Origin: Bacilli bacterium
Lineage (GTDB): Bacteria; Bacillota_I; Bacilli_A; RFN20; CAG-826
Assembly: GCA_022482735.1 (NCBI GenBank)
Contig: JAKVOO010000001.1
Span: 1,150,837 to 1,214,836, forward strand
Reading direction: 5' to 3'
Length of the DNA stretch: 64,000 nt
Position numbers and translations under genes: made by a program. The notes under the pieces are model-generated. The model was not told the DNA's origin, ran no database searches, and was given only the letters and a program-made list of their open reading frames with translations. Below, one piece after another: positions 7,082 to 18,405 of this stretch (position 1 is its first letter; each line of letters begins with the position of its first letter).

Positions 7082-9439
7082 ATGAAAAACAAAAAATTAT
7101 TTGTTCTTTCACTCTTTGGAGTTCTAGCCCTAACATCATGCGGTGGCGGCGGCGGCTCTACAAGCAGTGGAGGATCAGGCAGCTCAGGCTCGCAAACTAG
7201 CGGATCAGAGCTTCGTTTAGCTGGTGGCGAAGAAGGCGAAATTATCAACTACTCGGCCAGTAGCTATGCAGAACGCGCTAAGATTTTGGAACAACTCGAA
7301 AAGTATACGCTTGATAACTTCCTCGGTGGTATTCCGATGTATGATAGCGCAAGCAACGTCATGTATTCGACGCGTTTACAAATTCCAAGCGACACTTACA
7401 TTCCTAACTATGGTTTCGGTGTTGGCCAAGGTACCATTACTACGGCATTAACCTCGGCTCAAGAGCCGGAAACGAAATACGCAATGTATTTCCATAGTTG
7501 GCAATCACAAGATCCAGGTAGTTTAAACTACTGGAATGCTAGTGACTCTGTCACCGCTGACTTAAATGCCCTTATCACTTCGGCCTATTACGGAACCGAA
7601 TTTACAGAAGATAAGAGCAGTTATCAATGGTATGATTCATTGGCGACCGAAAAGCCAATTGCTCTCAATCCAGATGCAAATGGTATGGCCACTAAATGGA
7701 GAGTTAAGGTTAAGACGGTTACCGATACTCCAACCCTCGTTTACAACACGCTCTCAACCGCTCCGGATAGAGCTGCTTACGACGGAAGAGGAGTGGTCCT
7801 TGCCGACTATTTAACTCCATTCAAGGCAATTCTTGACAATCAACTTTATCGTTCTACCGATTTAGGATCTTCATCCTCAGGTTTCGTTGGCGCTGCTCAA
7901 TATAGTGCTGATGTCGCTGCCGGAAAGAGCCCAAACTGGAACAGTGTTGGTATTCAACTTAACGAAACCGAACAATCAATTGATTTTGAGTTCGTTACGA
8001 AGAAGACTCAATTCTATGCAATGTATAACTTGTCCTCAAGTTTATTCTCACCGATTCCACAAAGCTTCTTAGATCTTATTGGCGGTGCGGCTAACTTCGG
8101 GTTACAATCCGGTGGTGTTAACAACGTCTTATCACTTGGTATGTATACCTTAGAGGAGTGGCAAGCTGACAAGCAATTAGCCTTTAAGAAGAATCCAGTA
8201 TTCTTTGAAAAAGATCGGGCTAACTTTGCTGGCTACAAGTACACCATTCTTGGTAGTGCTACCGTCGCCTTTGATGAATTCTTAGCTGGCAAACTTGACT
8301 CAGCTGGTATTCCTTCAACCGCGCTTGATCAATACAAATCAGACCCACGTACCCGTCGGACCCTTGGTGATACCGTTTGGAAACTTCAAACCAACACCAC
8401 GACTGAAGCGGGATGGGAATCATTATTTGGCGAAACAGGATCAGTATATCCTCACTCCGAGGATTCTTACTGGGATGTTAAACCAGTTATGTCTAACAAA
8501 GACTTCTTAAACGGCTTATACTTCTCAATCAACCGTTCTGAATTGGCGGCTGAAGAAGGCAAAAACCCAGCTGCGGCATTCTTATCCGATGCTTACATGA
8601 TTGACCCAGAAGAAGGTATTTCCTTCCGTTCGAGTGATGAAGGTAAAGCTGTTCTTGAAGACCGTTTACCTGAAAGCAATGGTTATGATACCGAAATTGC
8701 CAAGGGCTTATTCCAAAGAGCTATGACGACTCTTGAGGCTGAAGGAAAATATACTCCAGGAACCCCAACTTCGCCAACGCCAATTACGCTTGAATTGATT
8801 TATCAATCACAAAGCCAAGTTGATACTGAAGGTATTACGATTAAGAAATACTTCGAAGAAACATTTAATGCGGCTTGCCCGAATTATAAGTTAACCATTC
8901 ATACTTATGCTACTTCTAACTGGATGGATGCTTACTATGCGGCTATGCAAGGCGACTTCGACTTATCGTTTGGTTCAATCAGCGGTAACACCCTTGACCC
9001 AATCTCCTTCATGGATACCGTTTGCTCGGATAACCGTTCTGGATTTACCCTTTCTTGGGGACCTGATACCGGTGCCGTCAATATGGATAGCCCAATCGTC
9101 TATGATGAACAAATCTTCTCCTATGATGCCTTATTAGGCGCTGCCAATGGTGGTGCGGTTATTAAAAATGGTGAAGCTGCTAATATGTTTAAACTTACAA
9201 ACATTGAAGCTGGCGAAGCTGTTGATGGTAAATTCACTGCTACTGGTCATGGTACTTATTTCTACAATGCGGAGTATGCAAGCCGTATTCAAGTTGAAAT
9301 CGTTGCCGTCGAAATTTGGTACTATAGTGCACCATTACCAGAAGGTGTTAGTGAAGATGGATTCGTTGCCCCAGAACTTGGTGTGAACTTAACCATCAAT
9401 ATGAATACCGATGGCACATTTGAAGTTATCGTTACCTGA
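7082..9439 (+). CDS. oppA: Oligopeptide ABC transporter substrate-binding lipoprotein (frame interrupted at 3' end)
   Basis: As read, a 785-residue protein. The signal peptide MKNKKLFVLSLFGVLALTSC ends in a lipobox with Cys20, followed by a Gly/Ser linker (to about residue 42) and a long SBP_bac_5-type domain (for example YWNASDSVTADL near 150). Membrane anchoring outside the cell and capture of peptides for OppBCDF are expected. The frame is open 24 codons upstream, but AAAGGAG lies 8 bases before ATG 7082 and the signal peptide starts there. The frame stops at TGA 9437-9439, while the following bases continue the same protein in the +1 frame (see 9438-9557). Downstream hairpins probably give it higher expression than the permeases. 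Confidence 0.85.
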   Translation: MKNKKLFVLSLFGVLALTSCGGGGGSTSSGGSGSSGSQTSGSELRLAGGEEGEIINYSASSYAERAKILEQLEKYTLDNFLGGIPMYDSASNVMYSTRLQIPSDTYIPNYGFGVGQGTITTALTSAQEPETKYAMYFHSWQSQDPGSLNYWNASDSVTADLNALITSAYYGTEFTEDKSSYQWYDSLATEKPIALNPDANGMATKWRVKVKTVTDTPTLVYNTLSTAPDRAAYDGRGVVLADYLTPFKAILDNQLYRSTDLGSSSSGFVGAAQYSADVAAGKSPNWNSVGIQLNETEQSIDFEFVTKKTQFYAMYNLSSSLFSPIPQSFLDLIGGAANFGLQSGGVNNVLSLGMYTLEEWQADKQLAFKKNPVFFEKDRANFAGYKYTILGSATVAFDEFLAGKLDSAGIPSTALDQYKSDPRTRRTLGDTVWKLQTNTTTEAGWESLFGETGSVYPHSEDSYWDVKPVMSNKDFLNGLYFSINRSELAAEEGKNPAAAFLSDAYMIDPEEGISFRSSDEGKAVLEDRLPESNGYDTEIAKGLFQRAMTTLEAEGKYTPGTPTSPTPITLELIYQSQSQVDTEGITIKKYFEETFNAACPNYKLTIHTYATSNWMDAYYAAMQGDFDLSFGSISGNTLDPISFMDTVCSDNRSGFTLSWGPDTGAVNMDSPIVYDEQIFSYDALLGAANGGAVIKNGEAANMFKLTNIEAGEAVDGKFTATGHGTYFYNAEYASRIQVEIVAVEIWYYSAPLPEGVSEDGFVAPELGVNLTINMNTDGTFEVIVT

Positions 9440-9727: not shown

Positions 9728-10756
9728 ATGTGGAAATATATTGTAAAACGTATCTTATTGATGCTCTTAACCACTTTCATTATCCTTTCGTTAACTTTTA
9801 TTCTCATGAAGATGTTGAAGATGCAGACCGCTCCAGGAACGGCAGAACAGCAAAAAGCATTTTATGATAATCAAGTTGCGTTAGGCTACATGTATATAGT
9901 TACGGATCATACTGTCACATCAGATGTGACATTGGCGCCAATTGGTGGCGTGGTTTGGCGGTACAACGTTTATCCGGTTATGTACCAATATTTTATTTGG
10001 ATTCGTAATATTATTACGAAATGGGATTGGGGAACCTCAACAAGAATTGCCTTTAATGATTCAGTTATGACTATTATAGCGCGACGACTTCCCTATTCGA
10101 TGAAACTAAATGTTTGGGCGATGATTTTTTCTATCCCGCTTGGATTTATTCTAGGTATTTGGGCGGCTTTAAAGAAAAATAAACCAGCCGACCACACTAT
10201 TTCCACATTAGTTATGGTTTTTATTTCTGTTCCTTCATTTGTAATTATTTCATTTTTAATGAAAATATTAGCTTACGATGCGGGTTGGTTGCCAACCCAG
10301 TGGCCATCAGATGGTGCGCCACTTGCTATTAGAATTCAGGGCTATATAATTCCTGTAATGTGTTTGTGCTTTGGAACAGTAGCGGGATTTACTCGTTATA
10401 CTCGAGCCGAACTTACGGAAGTTATGTCAAGTGAGTTCCTTCTTTTGGCACGGACTAAAGGCTTAACGAAGTCTCAAACAGTAATTCGCCACGCCTTACG
10501 GAACTCGCTAGTGCCAATTGTTCCGATGATTATTGGAGAATTCATTGGTATTCTTTCTGGATCAATGATTCTCGAACAATTGTACGGAATTCCCGGAATA
10601 GGCTCATTATTCGTCACAGCAATTACGGTTAAGGACTATAACGTCATCATGGTCGATATGGCCGTTTATACAATGATTGGTCTTGTTGCCATTTTATTGG
10701 TTGACCTCAGTTATGGTATTGTTGACCCAAGAATCAGAATGGGGGCCCGCAAATAA
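9728..10756 (+). CDS. oppB: Oligopeptide ABC transporter permease OppB
   Basis: A 342-residue inner-membrane subunit with six hydrophobic segments. The EAA loop reads LARTKGLTKSQTVIRHALRNSLVP near residue 240 and contacts the ATPases. The external loop after helix 1 is about 70 residues, longer than usual. AAAAGGAG lies upstream of the ATG; the stop overlaps the oppC start by one base. Confidence 0.92.
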   Translation: MWKYIVKRILLMLLTTFIILSLTFILMKMLKMQTAPGTAEQQKAFYDNQVALGYMYIVTDHTVTSDVTLAPIGGVVWRYNVYPVMYQYFIWIRNIITKWDWGTSTRIAFNDSVMTIIARRLPYSMKLNVWAMIFSIPLGFILGIWAALKKNKPADHTISTLVMVFISVPSFVIISFLMKILAYDAGWLPTQWPSDGAPLAIRIQGYIIPVMCLCFGTVAGFTRYTRAELTEVMSSEFLLLARTKGLTKSQTVIRHALRNSLVPIVPMIIGEFIGILSGSMILEQLYGIPGIGSLFVTAITVKDYNVIMVDMAVYTMIGLVAILLVDLSYGIVDPRIRMGARK

Positions 10757-12708
10757 TGGAAAACGAAAAAAAGAAAAATCCTAACATCGAAACAGCAAAT
10801 GATGGTATTGAAGCCAGCGATTTTCGTTTTGTTCAAAAGGATAAAACTATTCATGATGTTAAGTTTCAAACTAAACCTACAACATTCTTAAAGGATGCAA
10901 TAACTCGTTTTGTGAAGAATAAATCGTCAGTTGTGGCGGGCATTATTCTTTCAGTTATTGTTTTGATGGCGATTTTTGTTCCAATTTTAGATACCTCTGA
11001 TATTGAAAGTTCAAAAAAGCCTGAAGCTTTGCTGAGTCCAAGATGGTATGGTTTTGAAAATGCATCTATTTTAAACGGAACCAGAAAATATTCTGGCGTG
11101 GTTGTAGATACAATCACCGATCCAGAAAATCCAACTCCAGCTGGGTATAAGAGCGAAGCGGTTAGAAGTATGTCCACCTATGAAGACTATATCAGTAGTC
11201 CTTCGCAATACGGATGGGGAGGAATGGTTGCCTTACGTGCGGATACGCGGGATAAGAATGTGGCAATTGCTTCACCGGCTTTCTATGTGTATCCAGATGA
11301 AGACTACACTTTTACCTTTAACTTCAATGAAGAGGAAAATGCGGCTTTAGAAGTAAGTGCTAATTATATGATTTCGCTTTGGGTGAGCTATGACAATAAT
11401 GGTATTTATACACAACTATTGTTAAAACCTTATTCTTCTGATTTTGGCGCAATTTCGATTGACAATGTAAGCCAAGTTATCGAAGAAAATAGACCAACAT
11501 CCAATACGGAAGCCTTCTTTAATGTGCGTTTCTTGCTGACTTTAAAGACAGCGACATCGGGGACTTATCCGACACTGCTAATTGATTCGATTTCTGGAGT
11601 CAATGATAATGATGAAACCGATGGCTTCTTTGATAATATTGGCTTCGTTGACGGCAACAGTTATATGCTTCGCGAAGTAACTGGAAGTACGCAAGCGGCT
11701 TATAAATGGGGAATCGCTTCTGGATATAGCGGTTCTAAGAGTCTATATAAAGGCTTAATTTTAAAAGCTAACTTTGTTTATGATCAATATTTAGCTGTTT
11801 ATGGCGAGCAGAAAGATTTCCAAGTTGGAAAATCGGAAGTCGATGTTTATATTGCTAAGGGTTGGATGAGTTATGACTATGATATCGGGCCATCTTCTTT
11901 TGTTCGATTGAGCGAGCATTGCCCAATTATTGAGGTCACATCTCAAAAGACTAGTACAGCACAGGGAATTACTTCCATTTATGTTATTGGTAAAGTCTCA
12001 ATGTATCGTTATTATGGTTATTCTTCCATGCCTCACTTTATATTTGGAACAGATATCTCTGGACACGATTTCTTCAAGCGAGTTTTTTCCGGCCTAAGAA
12101 CTTCGTTAATGTTGGGTGTTTTGGCAACAGTCATTAATGTCACCATCGGTATTATTTGGGGAGCTATTTCCGCTTATTATGGCGGCTGGACAGATTTAAT
12201 CATGGAGCGTCTTACCGACATCTTGGGTGGAGTTCCGTGGATTGTCGTCATGACTCTGGCTATTCTACATTTTGGCAACAATATGTGGACCTTCCTTATG
12301 GCTATATGTTTGACGGGTTGGATTGGGACAGCCAGTGTTACGCGTTCTCAGTTTTACCGTTATAAACGCAGAGAATATGTCTTGGCCTCAAGAACATTAG
12401 GCGCCAGTGACAGACGATTAATTTTCCGGCATATTCTTCCCAATGCAGTCGGTGTTATCGTCACCTCATCGGTCTTGATGATTCCTTCAATCATCTTCTC
12501 GGAAGCCACTATTGCTTACTTGCAACTTGGTTTACAAGGCGTGCCGAGTTTAGGCGTGGCCCTTAGTGAGGCGCAAAATTATTTGAAGGATTCGTCTTAT
12601 ATGACGATTTCCGCTTCCATCGTGGTTTCAATATTAATGATTTGTTTTAACCTATTTGGCAACGGTCTCCGTGATGCCTTTAACCCATCACTGAAGGGAG
12701 TTGATTAA
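10756..12708 (+). CDS. oppC: Oligopeptide ABC transporter permease OppC with large external domain
   Basis: A 650-residue protein against about 300 for ordinary OppC. Residues 1-50 are cytoplasmic and 52-75 form the first membrane helix. About 76-425 is a hydrophilic, Tyr/Ser/Asp-rich region with beta-strand character that should face outside. From about 430 the normal transporter core resumes (FGTDISGHDFFKRVFSGLRTSL, then five helices). The EAA loop ASRTLGASDRRLIFRHILPN is intact near residue 545. The external part could help dock OppA or bind substrate; this is inference. Translationally coupled to oppB and oppD. Confidence 0.9.
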   Translation: MENEKKKNPNIETANDGIEASDFRFVQKDKTIHDVKFQTKPTTFLKDAITRFVKNKSSVVAGIILSVIVLMAIFVPILDTSDIESSKKPEALLSPRWYGFENASILNGTRKYSGVVVDTITDPENPTPAGYKSEAVRSMSTYEDYISSPSQYGWGGMVALRADTRDKNVAIASPAFYVYPDEDYTFTFNFNEEENAALEVSANYMISLWVSYDNNGIYTQLLLKPYSSDFGAISIDNVSQVIEENRPTSNTEAFFNVRFLLTLKTATSGTYPTLLIDSISGVNDNDETDGFFDNIGFVDGNSYMLREVTGSTQAAYKWGIASGYSGSKSLYKGLILKANFVYDQYLAVYGEQKDFQVGKSEVDVYIAKGWMSYDYDIGPSSFVRLSEHCPIIEVTSQKTSTAQGITSIYVIGKVSMYRYYGYSSMPHFIFGTDISGHDFFKRVFSGLRTSLMLGVLATVINVTIGIIWGAISAYYGGWTDLIMERLTDILGGVPWIVVMTLAILHFGNNMWTFLMAICLTGWIGTASVTRSQFYRYKRREYVLASRTLGASDRRLIFRHILPNAVGVIVTSSVLMIPSIIFSEATIAYLQLGLQGVPSLGVALSEAQNYLKDSSYMTISASIVVSILMICFNLFGNGLRDAFNPSLKGVD

Positions 12709-12709
12709 T

Positions 12710-14719
12710 ATGGCGACAATAAAAAAAGTTCCTGAAAAGGAAGTTGTTATCAGTGTACAGGACTTGAGAATTTCTTTCTTTACAGACAATGGACGCGTCC
12801 ATGCTGTTCGGGGTGTGAGTTTTGATTTATACAAAGGGGAGATTCTTTGTATCGTTGGCGAGTCGGGATCGGGTAAATCGGTTTCAGCCAAGACGATTAT
12901 GGGAATTTTACCGGGTAATGCCCGAATTGATTCGGGAAGCATTATGTTTGAAGGCGAAGATTTGACGCAAGTGTCGGAAGAAGAATTTCACCGAATCCGG
13001 GGAAATAAGATTGGAATGATTTTCCAGGACCCACTCTCTTCCTTAAATCCGATTATGAAGGTGGGCAAGCAAATCACCGAAGCGGTCATTATTAATAGTG
13101 ACAAAATGAAGCAGAAGTTCGATGACATCATTGCGCCGACTAATATCAAGTATAAAAACGATCAAGCTAAGATTTTTCATAAGGTAGATGGTATCCAAAC
13201 GGCGATTGCTCTTAGAAAGAAAGAGACCAAGGATGCTATTGCCAACATAAAAGCTACTTCGAAACGTAATCAAGTCAAGAAGTTGAAGGCGGAATTACGG
13301 GAAGAAGAGATCAAGATTAATCGTGAAGCAACTACATTACTAAAGAAATTAGACTCGGTCATTCAGGAAGAAAAAAAGAAAATTAGCTTTGCACAAGCGG
13401 AGATTGAAACGAAGATAGTTCTTAAGAACAATGAGCTTAAGGAAGCAATCAGCGCTGTTAAAGCGGATAAATTGCTTAATGAAGAAGAAAAGAGTGTTAA
13501 AGTTAAAGCACTTACGGATGCTTTTAAAAACGAGAAAAGCCAATTAGAGGGTAATATCGCTAATTTGGAGACTGGATTAATTCCGTTAATTCAAGATCGG
13601 GACGAAAAAGTAGAAGCAGCCAAAAAAGTTTCCCTAGAAAAAATTGCGGTTAAGCGCGACGAAAAAAACAAGCAAATTGCCGCTGTTTTGGCAGATGATT
13701 CTATTTCAGATGCCGTATTGAAAGAAAAAATTCGCGAGTTGAAATTAACCTTAAGAGACGACAAAGCGAAGGCAAAACGTGAAATTGCCGACTATAAAAT
13801 CGAGATGAAGCCGATTTTGCGCGAAGATAAGGCAAAATTGAAAGTGGCTAAAAAAGAGGCCAAGGCGGAAGTTAAAGCCTACAAAGCCGATTTAGTAAAA
13901 AAGCGGGATGAGAAGCTTGCATCTTTAAGTGAACATTTGAAATCCGCTAAGGCTAATGGCACTAAAGAAGAAATCAAAAAGACGGAAGAAGAAATTGCTA
14001 AAGTGAAAGCCGAATACGTTGATTCAATTAAAATCACCCGTTCAGAAGCTAAGAAAATGGCAATTAAAGTTATGACCGAAGTGGGAATTCCCAATGCGGA
14101 AAGACGCTATAAGCAATATCCATTTGAATTTTCAGGTGGTATGCGGCAAAGAATCGTCATTGCTATTGCTTTGACACAAAATCCAGATATTCTTATTCTT
14201 GATGAACCAACCACTGCGCTTGATGTTACTATTCAAGCTCAGATTTTGGAATTGGTTAACAACTTGAAGCGGAATCGTAACTTGTCAGCAATCTTTATTA
14301 CCCACGACTTAGGCGTTGTGGCCAATATGGCGGATCGAGTTGCGGTTATGTATGCAGGTAAAATTGTTGAATACGGATTGGTTAATGAAATATTTTATGA
14401 TCCGCGGCATCCATATACATGGGCGCTACTATCATCAATTCCTGATATCGATAGTAAAGAACGGCTTGAAGCTATTCCGGGTACGCCACCCAATATGATT
14501 TTTCCACCTGTTGGTGATGCTTTTGCCTTGAGAAGTCATTATGCCATGTCAGTTGATTTCAAAAAAGAGCCGCCACTATTCCAGGTGTCGGATACTCATT
14601 TTGCTGCCACTTGGCTTCTTGACCCTCGGGCACCCAAAGCGCAAATGCCAAAAATTGTTAGCGAACGAATTCGCATTTCGCTCGCACGGGCTAAAAAAGA
14701 GGAGGCGAAAGTCAAATGA
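12710..14719 (+). CDS. oppD: Oligopeptide ABC transporter ATPase OppD with long helical insertion
   Basis: A 669-residue ATPase, roughly twice the usual 330-350. Walker A GESGSGKS is near residue 50 and the Q-loop IFQDPLSSLNP near 105. Residues from about 128 to 440 are a Lys/Glu/Ala-rich, heptad-like helical insertion with no Walker features. The fold then resumes with a normal helix, the signature FSGGMRQR (about 474), Walker B ILILDEPTTALD and HDLGVVA. The C-terminal oligopeptide-type extension (GTPPNM region) is present, but the usual cluster of Cys in that tail is missing. ATG 12710 follows GGGAG; oppF overlaps the end by 4 bp. Confidence 0.92.
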   Translation: MATIKKVPEKEVVISVQDLRISFFTDNGRVHAVRGVSFDLYKGEILCIVGESGSGKSVSAKTIMGILPGNARIDSGSIMFEGEDLTQVSEEEFHRIRGNKIGMIFQDPLSSLNPIMKVGKQITEAVIINSDKMKQKFDDIIAPTNIKYKNDQAKIFHKVDGIQTAIALRKKETKDAIANIKATSKRNQVKKLKAELREEEIKINREATTLLKKLDSVIQEEKKKISFAQAEIETKIVLKNNELKEAISAVKADKLLNEEEKSVKVKALTDAFKNEKSQLEGNIANLETGLIPLIQDRDEKVEAAKKVSLEKIAVKRDEKNKQIAAVLADDSISDAVLKEKIRELKLTLRDDKAKAKREIADYKIEMKPILREDKAKLKVAKKEAKAEVKAYKADLVKKRDEKLASLSEHLKSAKANGTKEEIKKTEEEIAKVKAEYVDSIKITRSEAKKMAIKVMTEVGIPNAERRYKQYPFEFSGGMRQRIVIAIALTQNPDILILDEPTTALDVTIQAQILELVNNLKRNRNLSAIFITHDLGVVANMADRVAVMYAGKIVEYGLVNEIFYDPRHPYTWALLSSIPDIDSKERLEAIPGTPPNMIFPPVGDAFALRSHYAMSVDFKKEPPLFQVSDTHFAATWLLDPRAPKAQMPKIVSERIRISLARAKKEEAKVK

Positions 14720-17784: not shown

Positions 17785-18116
17785 TGTAAAAACAAAAATA
17801 TAGGGTGGTCTCACCCGAGTCAATTGGTAGACGATACAACACACAAATACTTTGTTAATGGAACAAAGATATTAATAGAAGAATTAAATACTAATAGTGT
17901 TAAGAAGTATTTAAAGTACAAGTACTTTGGTGATAAATTGTATGGCTTCAATTGTAATGAGGTTGATTACTATTACCTAAGAAATACCCAAGGTGATATC
18001 ACTTCAATTATTGATCGAAATGGTATTGAAGTAGCAAGATATACATATGATGCCTGGGGTAATCATGTAGTAAATAATTTAACCGAAGACAATATTGATG
18101 ATATCAGTCCGTTTAG
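17785..18116 (+). pseudogene. RHS/YD-repeat core fragment
   Basis: The frame from 17785 reads HKYFVNGTKILIEE, then YYYLRNTQGDITSIIDRNG and YTYDAWGNHVVNNLTED. This is the well-known RHS core of wall-associated and polymorphic-toxin proteins. It lacks any start signal, secretion region or upstream YD repeats, and it breaks off at DISPFR, where normal RHS proteins continue to the PxxxxRYYDPE-type core end. It is a piece of a much larger gene, brought here by recombination or left by deletion. Confidence 0.8.
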
Positions 18117-18405
18117 AATTGCAGAATTGTTAAAGAAAGAGAAAATACTCACGCCAAGAGCAGAACAATATAAAACCACTGGCAAACCTCTATCAAAAAT
18201 AATTGATAAATATTCATATGACTGATTTAATAGAACGATCACTGAAATGTTAAGCAAAGAAGTTTATGTTGAAACAATAGTATGCAATAAATGGCAAACC
18301 AAGAATTATAAATCAAAAGTACTAGCAAAGAACAATAAGGAAAAATTGTAAAGTTGTAAATGATGTGAGATCAATTTCTTCAAAAAAAGAAGAGTGATTC
18401 TTTGG
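18117..18405 (+). pseudogene. Serine recombinase fragment, multiply disrupted
   Basis: Directly in frame after the RHS piece come IAELLKKEKILTPRAEQY, then FNRTITEMLSKEVY, then NKWQTKNYKSK. These fit the linker region of large serine recombinases (IAxxLNxxxIxTP... W...TVxxxLxNExYxG...SYKSKK). The frame has TGA at 18223-18225, where family members have Trp, and TAA near 18349. VVNDVRSISSKKEE then continues in a different frame to TGA near 18395. The catalytic Ser domain and zinc ribbon are absent, so it is a dead remnant of an integrative element. Confidence 0.65.

Follow-up and report, generated by a model that had tools for sequence, protein, structure and literature searches.

What is the region of some 350 residues that separates the first membrane helix of an OppC permease from its transporter core, and what might it contribute to an oligopeptide importer? 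The gene raising this question lies in the 64,000-nucleotide stretch of DNA analysed here (the window), placed between oppB and oppD/oppF and accompanied by the substrate-binding protein (SBP) gene oppA, and it encodes the OppC of an oligopeptide ABC importer (Table 1). The oppA-B-C-D-F cluster is contiguous and tight, with gene overlaps at B/C, C/D and D/F. Two Pfam models match the protein above their gathering scores, OppC_N at residues 43–78 (E = 6.8e-10) and BPD_transp_1 at residues 465–647 (E = 3.2e-29), and the NCBIfam model Opp3C (NF045475) covers the core (residues 416–647) with 282 bits, well below the equivalog cut-off of 450. Directly before TM1 is a conserved FKDAxxRFxKNKSSVV motif.

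Table 1 Features of the opp cluster in the window, with positions numbered from the first nucleotide of the window.
Feature	Position	Strand	Basis
oppA, lipoprotein-type SBP, 785 aa, lipobox LTSC, SBP_bac_5	7082..9439	+	
oppB, 342 aa, stop overlapped by oppC start	9728..10756	+	
oppC, 650 aa permease subunit, large ectodomain, Opp3C-like core	10756..12708	+	uninterrupted ORF, Pfam, NCBIfam
TM1 of OppC (residues 56–78)	10921..10989	+	AlphaFold2 helix, OppC_N Pfam, hydropathy peak
Base module N part (residues 86–135), LxPKLFxAGTGFWDGT	11011..11160	+	conservation; hhalign to sandwich-less groups
Jelly-roll-type β-sandwich (residues ~136–312)	11161..11691	+	AlphaFold2 strands, conservation, Foldseek
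Base module C part (residues 313–425), leads chain back to TM2	11692..12030	+	conservation, hhalign
Canonical OppC transporter core (residues 426–650)	12031..12705	+	Pfam, NCBIfam, structure matches
oppD, 672 aa, K/E-rich insert of ~280 residues, Q-loop to signature motif	12701..14719	+	
oppF, 412 aa, charged insert, Walker A to Q-loop	14716..15954	+	

Connecting TM1 to TM2 is a loop of ~346 residues, with residues ~79–425 lying outside all known family matches. In E. coli OppC (8z21_B) the N-terminal match ends at residue 68 and the core begins at residue 82, leaving a gap of 13 residues (69–81), in keeping with the original prediction that normal OppC has only a short loop at this point. Within residues 90–415 no hydrophobic segment was found (highest 19-residue mean Kyte–Doolittle value, 0.69), which together with the topology of the family places the loop, as a soluble region, on the exocytoplasmic side facing the SBP. 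Chance or an assembly artefact is excluded by homologous inserts in 24 other genomes of the class (323–488 aa, and 143 aa in one) and on 80 named contigs.

Modelling with AlphaFold2 gave a mean pLDDT of 86 for the whole protein (75 sequences) and of 88 for residues 86–424 alone (39 rows), with values over the insert mostly between 80 and 98. In the model, TM1 spans residues 56–78, TM2 starts at residue ~439, and the insert is nearly all β with a few short helices; the loop is thus predicted to be an ordered, β-rich and well-folded ectodomain. The extracytoplasmic domain of about 350 residues that had been proposed from the sequence, hydrophilic and of β type, is borne out on these points; its aromatic richness is real but mild, with F/W/Y making up 14–17% of the sandwich and the C-terminal part of the insert versus 11.6% of the core.

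The central part of the insert is modelled as a jelly-roll-type β-sandwich, to which no family can be assigned and which is weakly MAM/lectin-like. A Foldseek search with the insert alone returned InhA2 (4yu5, E = 1e-4), the Eph ligand-binding domain, meprin, the FedF lectin and CBM28, all with TM-scores below 0.4; MalF was absent from the best 50 structural matches of this search, and an SBP-like two-lobe fold was found among none of the structural matches of the insert. With the whole model only OppC cores and weak β-sandwich matches were found, OpuA cores among them, and one whole-model match, 9bcr_H, is not localised to either insert or core. No Pfam model matched residues ~79–425 even at E = 10, and no PDB sequence matched them. 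Pfam MAM (PF00629) was weakly matched in 2 of 39 relatives (best E = 0.0026) and had no match in the window protein; profile and single-sequence searches (Pfam to E = 10, PDB sequences) gave no convincing carbohydrate-binding module, and self-BLAST showed no tandem repeat within the window insert. A carbohydrate-binding or SBP-like fold had been thought informative, but neither function could be assigned from these matches, which are generic to jelly-rolls. A matching domain with a described family was found in none of Pfam, NCBIfam, PDB sequences or the literature searched, nor did that literature hold a description of this insert.

OppC cores were matched in 99 of 198 genomes of the class, in open frames from ~300 to >900 residues that form a size series. 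The TM1–TM2 loop has ~25 residues in proteins of 308–311 aa and carries LPPRIPGLEKLGIFNGT, a motif shared with the base N part, in those of 336–338 aa; proteins of 425–564 aa have a longer loop without the sandwich, most of those of 629–736 aa have one sandwich, and those of 881–933 aa have two or three. In a tree built from the core only, the 65 sampled enlarged proteins (425–933 aa) form one clade (support 100/100), apart from the canonical proteins of 308–338 aa. This clade is undescribed in the libraries and papers searched, and represents a variant form in an already known family of transporters. The distinct importer architecture proposed for the window thus stands as a separate clade, but is not particular to the window system: numerous families of the class have enlarged OppC, and so do gut Clostridia.

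Within the core tree, group 1 (g1; support 100/98) has the sandwich, group 2 (g2; 98/97) is without it, and group 3 (g3; 99/96), which includes the window OppC, has it. Sandwich presence takes three changes on this tree. Homology between the inserts of groups 1 and 3 extends along their length (hhalign E = 6.7e-15), and the sandwiches alone align over 113 colinear columns at 1.2e-4, whereas none of eleven controls, scrambled or reversed, did better than 0.14. The sandwich is modular: it is absent from one subclade, lost in locus L023 of group 3 (where OppA, OppD and OppF, at 864, 575 and 471 residues, are still large) and repeated in tandem in loci L157–L159, in which a profile search found two to three copies (three in L158, at residues 148–588). 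One weak copy in L159 lies inside the base C part, which may be a second site of insertion.

With the window insert as query, 25 of 296 genomes of the class were matched, the window's own included, and the profile search that had been proposed for the taxonomic range of the domain found it in 30 of 392 genomes of the phylum. A first insert alignment of 25 rows was nowhere conserved well enough to scan the collection with; the 80 named contigs were found with AG[TSG]GFWDG, taken from a narrower alignment, and are biased towards copies with that motif. Among them are contigs of MAGs from gut and rumen that are classified as Bacilli, Erysipelotrichia, Mollicutes (Anaeroplasmataceae, Acholeplasmatales) and Clostridia (Lachnospiraceae, Oscillospiraceae). 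Misbinning is unlikely for several of the Clostridia matches because their contigs are long (702 kb for L034, 264 kb for L046). The Clostridia copies placed in the core tree (L034, L038 and L048) nest among Bacilli copies, which suggests that the enlarged oppABCDF was transferred horizontally between gut Bacilli and Clostridia. Enlarged oppABCDF clusters were also seen in the Clostridia MAG loci L034, L035, L038, L043, L046 and others.

In nearly every complete operon, an enlarged OppC is encoded beside an enlarged OppA. Canonical OppC (308–338 aa) is found, where readable, with OppA of 539–567 aa, OppD of 333–363 aa and OppF of 304–321 aa; members of the clade are found with OppA mostly of 760–1332 aa, lower values reflecting split or cut ORFs. 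Genome G047 has two operons, one with OppC of 336 aa and OppA of 539 aa, the other with OppC of 479 aa, outside the clade, and OppA of 647 aa. The correlation between OppC and OppA lengths is weak (Spearman rho 0.26–0.37) because the lengths jump from one clade to another and do not rise in a gradient, and since co-enlargement is mostly confined to one clade, phylogeny confounds the association. That the sandwich drives the size of OppA was considered and rejected, as OppC of 443 aa in L023/L181 is paired with OppA of 864 aa. Group 2, lacking the sandwich, has OppA of 760–1199 aa where complete; OppA can thus be large without the sandwich, as it is where the sandwich is lost or absent.

Enlargement on both sides of the membrane, as proposed originally, is seen in the window, where OppC, OppD and OppF all carry inserts, but it is not one unit. 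Systems with OppC of 427–506 aa (OppA 647–1199 aa) have mostly ordinary OppD of 344–383 aa, and those with larger OppC have enlarged OppD of 443–748 aa; the two membrane faces were thus enlarged independently, given that OppD is normal in many large-OppC systems. The charged insert of the window OppD lies between the Q-loop (108) and the signature (477), that of OppF between Walker A (60) and the Q-loop (187). The C-terminal regions of both are without a cysteine cluster, unlike those of E. coli DppD/DppF, which bind [4Fe-4S] (PMC12136057). In loci L097, L100, L105, L107 and L108, OppD and OppF are fused in one frame of 1126–1365 aa, the two halves being matched by their respective queries. 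The window OppA (7082–9439) is a very divergent, enlarged SBP with only a partial SBP_bac_5 match, and it matched nothing among PDB sequences at E ≤ 1e-5. Elsewhere in the window, a short ORF at 17824–18225 (+) resembles an RHS/YD-repeat fragment (NTQGDITSIIDRNGIEVARYTYDAWGNHVV) and is likely to be a remnant.

The reading that we prefer, with a probability of roughly 0.5, is that the loop serves as an exocytoplasmic platform in a MalF-P2-like position, of which the base would engage the enlarged OppA and the sandwich would be a dispensable extension. On this reading the oligopeptide ABC importer (OppABCDF), of type I, is ordinary in other respects, and OppC is its permease, with a TM1–TM2 loop that has grown into a platform placed like the DppB scoop motif and MalF P2. 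The base may dock the enlarged OppA and orient it over the translocation pore, and may limit the escape of released peptide, with the sandwich as a putative peripheral extension enlarging or shielding the docking surface; in wall-less members the surface of the platform would be exposed directly to the surroundings, here the gut. MalF P2 sits in what we take, from a reading of the topology, to be the loop equivalent to the TM1–TM2 loop of OppC.

The position of the loop makes contact with OppA plausible, in line with the original expectation that it would stand next to the OppA docking face. Docking of OppA by the base is most likely on account of its position and the constant company of an enlarged OppA, and is further favoured by conservation. 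Columns conserved at 80% or more make up 34% of the base N part and 14% of the base C part versus 4% of the sandwich (7 of 177 columns), and 59% of the core. Within the insert, conservation peaks in the base N part, whose LxPKLFxAGTGFWDGT motif is the element still recognised by hhalign in enlarged relatives without the sandwich; the base C part has the motifs YW, FxYDxY, CPI and YxxxGY and the conserved residues W318, D343, Y345, C389, P390, Y417 and G421. Precedent also favours docking: the TM1–TM2 periplasmic region of DppB in DppABCDF forms a scoop motif reaching into the cleft of DppA, and transport is impaired when it is deleted (PMC12136057), and MalF-P2 (residues 91–271) contacts MalE (PMC3150292). 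Counting against the platform reading are the persistence of a large OppA without the sandwich, the phylogenetic confounding of co-enlargement, and the window copy itself, which departs from the near-invariant AGTGFWDG: its LxPKLFxAGTGFWDGT stretch reads LLSPRWYGFENASILNGT, and at 11038–11082 (residues 95–109), where most of 75 relatives have PKLFxAGTGFWDGT, it reads PRWYGFENASILNGT and keeps only P95, G108 and T109.

It is possible, though a good deal less probable than this platform, that the sandwich acts mostly passively, as a spacer or shield, its sequence drifting or diversified by predation or immunity, and that only the base is functional. The insert is 20–29% identical to that of the window protein in relatives whose cores are 53–70% identical, and the loss in L023, absence from group 2 and repetition in L157–L159 come without a visible change in operon content. 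The fold is nevertheless kept across two divergent groups, suggesting purifying selection on structure. An unlikely alternative is that the sandwich is a ligand-binding module for glycan, mucin or a host surface, localising the importer or the cell near its substrate. Lectins, CBMs and MAM adhesion domains have folds of its class, the structural matches from InhA2 to CBM28 and the weak MAM hits are of this kind, and gut MAGs are the source of many members; however, the TM-scores are low and the matches generic to jelly-rolls, a whole subclade is without the sandwich, and a conserved patch for a ligand is not clearly seen: 75% conservation is reached in no more than 12 columns of the sandwich, two Tyr but no Trp among them. 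ABC importers with permease-fused substrate-binding domains exist, for example OpuA, and the size and position of the ectodomain would fit an extra substrate-capture or selectivity domain beside OppA, but this is very improbable given that no SBP-like fold was found and that OppA is kept beside OppC in nearly all complete operons.

As to the cell envelope, the window genome (G000, 94% complete) gave no match to the PF00905 transpeptidase or to PF00953 (MraY-type), with controls detected, and the organism is therefore probably without peptidoglycan; wall loss has been described in these orders (PMC10868615). Among the genomes of the class that were checked, PF00905 is missing in 35 of 42 with enlarged OppC and present in all 6 with canonical OppC (Fisher p 1e-4, phylogeny ignored); one of these 6 encodes, in addition, the 479-aa OppC that falls outside the clade. 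The ectodomain is not tied to wall loss, being found also in walled Bacilli and Clostridia. A broader scenario, which we regard as rather doubtful, would make these systems a separate importer lineage of mollicute-related Bacilli and gut Clostridia, in which a modular permease ectodomain and a giant lipoprotein OppA form a surface peptide-capture, possibly adhesive, machine that arose before the wall was lost and that wall-less gut bacteria retained or extended.

Gut Bacilli with reduced genomes are likely to depend on Opp systems as a main source of amino acids, and OppC_N, BPD_transp_1 and the NCBIfam equivalogs leave about half the length of enlarged OppC unmodelled. Detailed knowledge of how a permease ectodomain docks an SBP comes so far mostly from MalF-P2 and the DppB scoop; the loops described here (~25, 50, 150, 250, 350 and 600 residues) offer a natural series for testing what such an ectodomain contributes to docking.

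Among known systems, the MAM/InhA2 jelly-rolls share with the sandwich a weak fold resemblance (TM-score ≤ 0.3 on the query, with no significant sequence family match). Opp3C/OppC (NF045475; E. coli 8z21_B) shares the 225-residue core, the TM1 segment and the oppABCDF order, but the window protein has a folded loop of ~346 residues instead of ~13, scores 282 against 450 and belongs to a separate clade. The Mycoplasma Opp system (NCBIfam MMSYN1_0165 to 0169), from wall-less relatives, likewise has enlarged OppA, OppD and OppF (model lengths 896, 561 and 649), whereas its OppC model, MMSYN1_0166, has only 307 positions and therefore no ectodomain. The DppB scoop (PMC12136057) is also a TM1–TM2 periplasmic region of a peptide ABC family permease, but is made up of a loop with two short helices and belongs to the B subunit, in contrast to a folded β domain in the C subunit. 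MalF P2 (PMC3150292), although of ~180 residues, from a maltose system and outside the best 50 structural matches of the insert, is likewise a large, folded, β-containing exocytoplasmic region of a type I importer permease, as modelled for the window OppC (pLDDT 86–88), and is one whose contact with the SBP is known.
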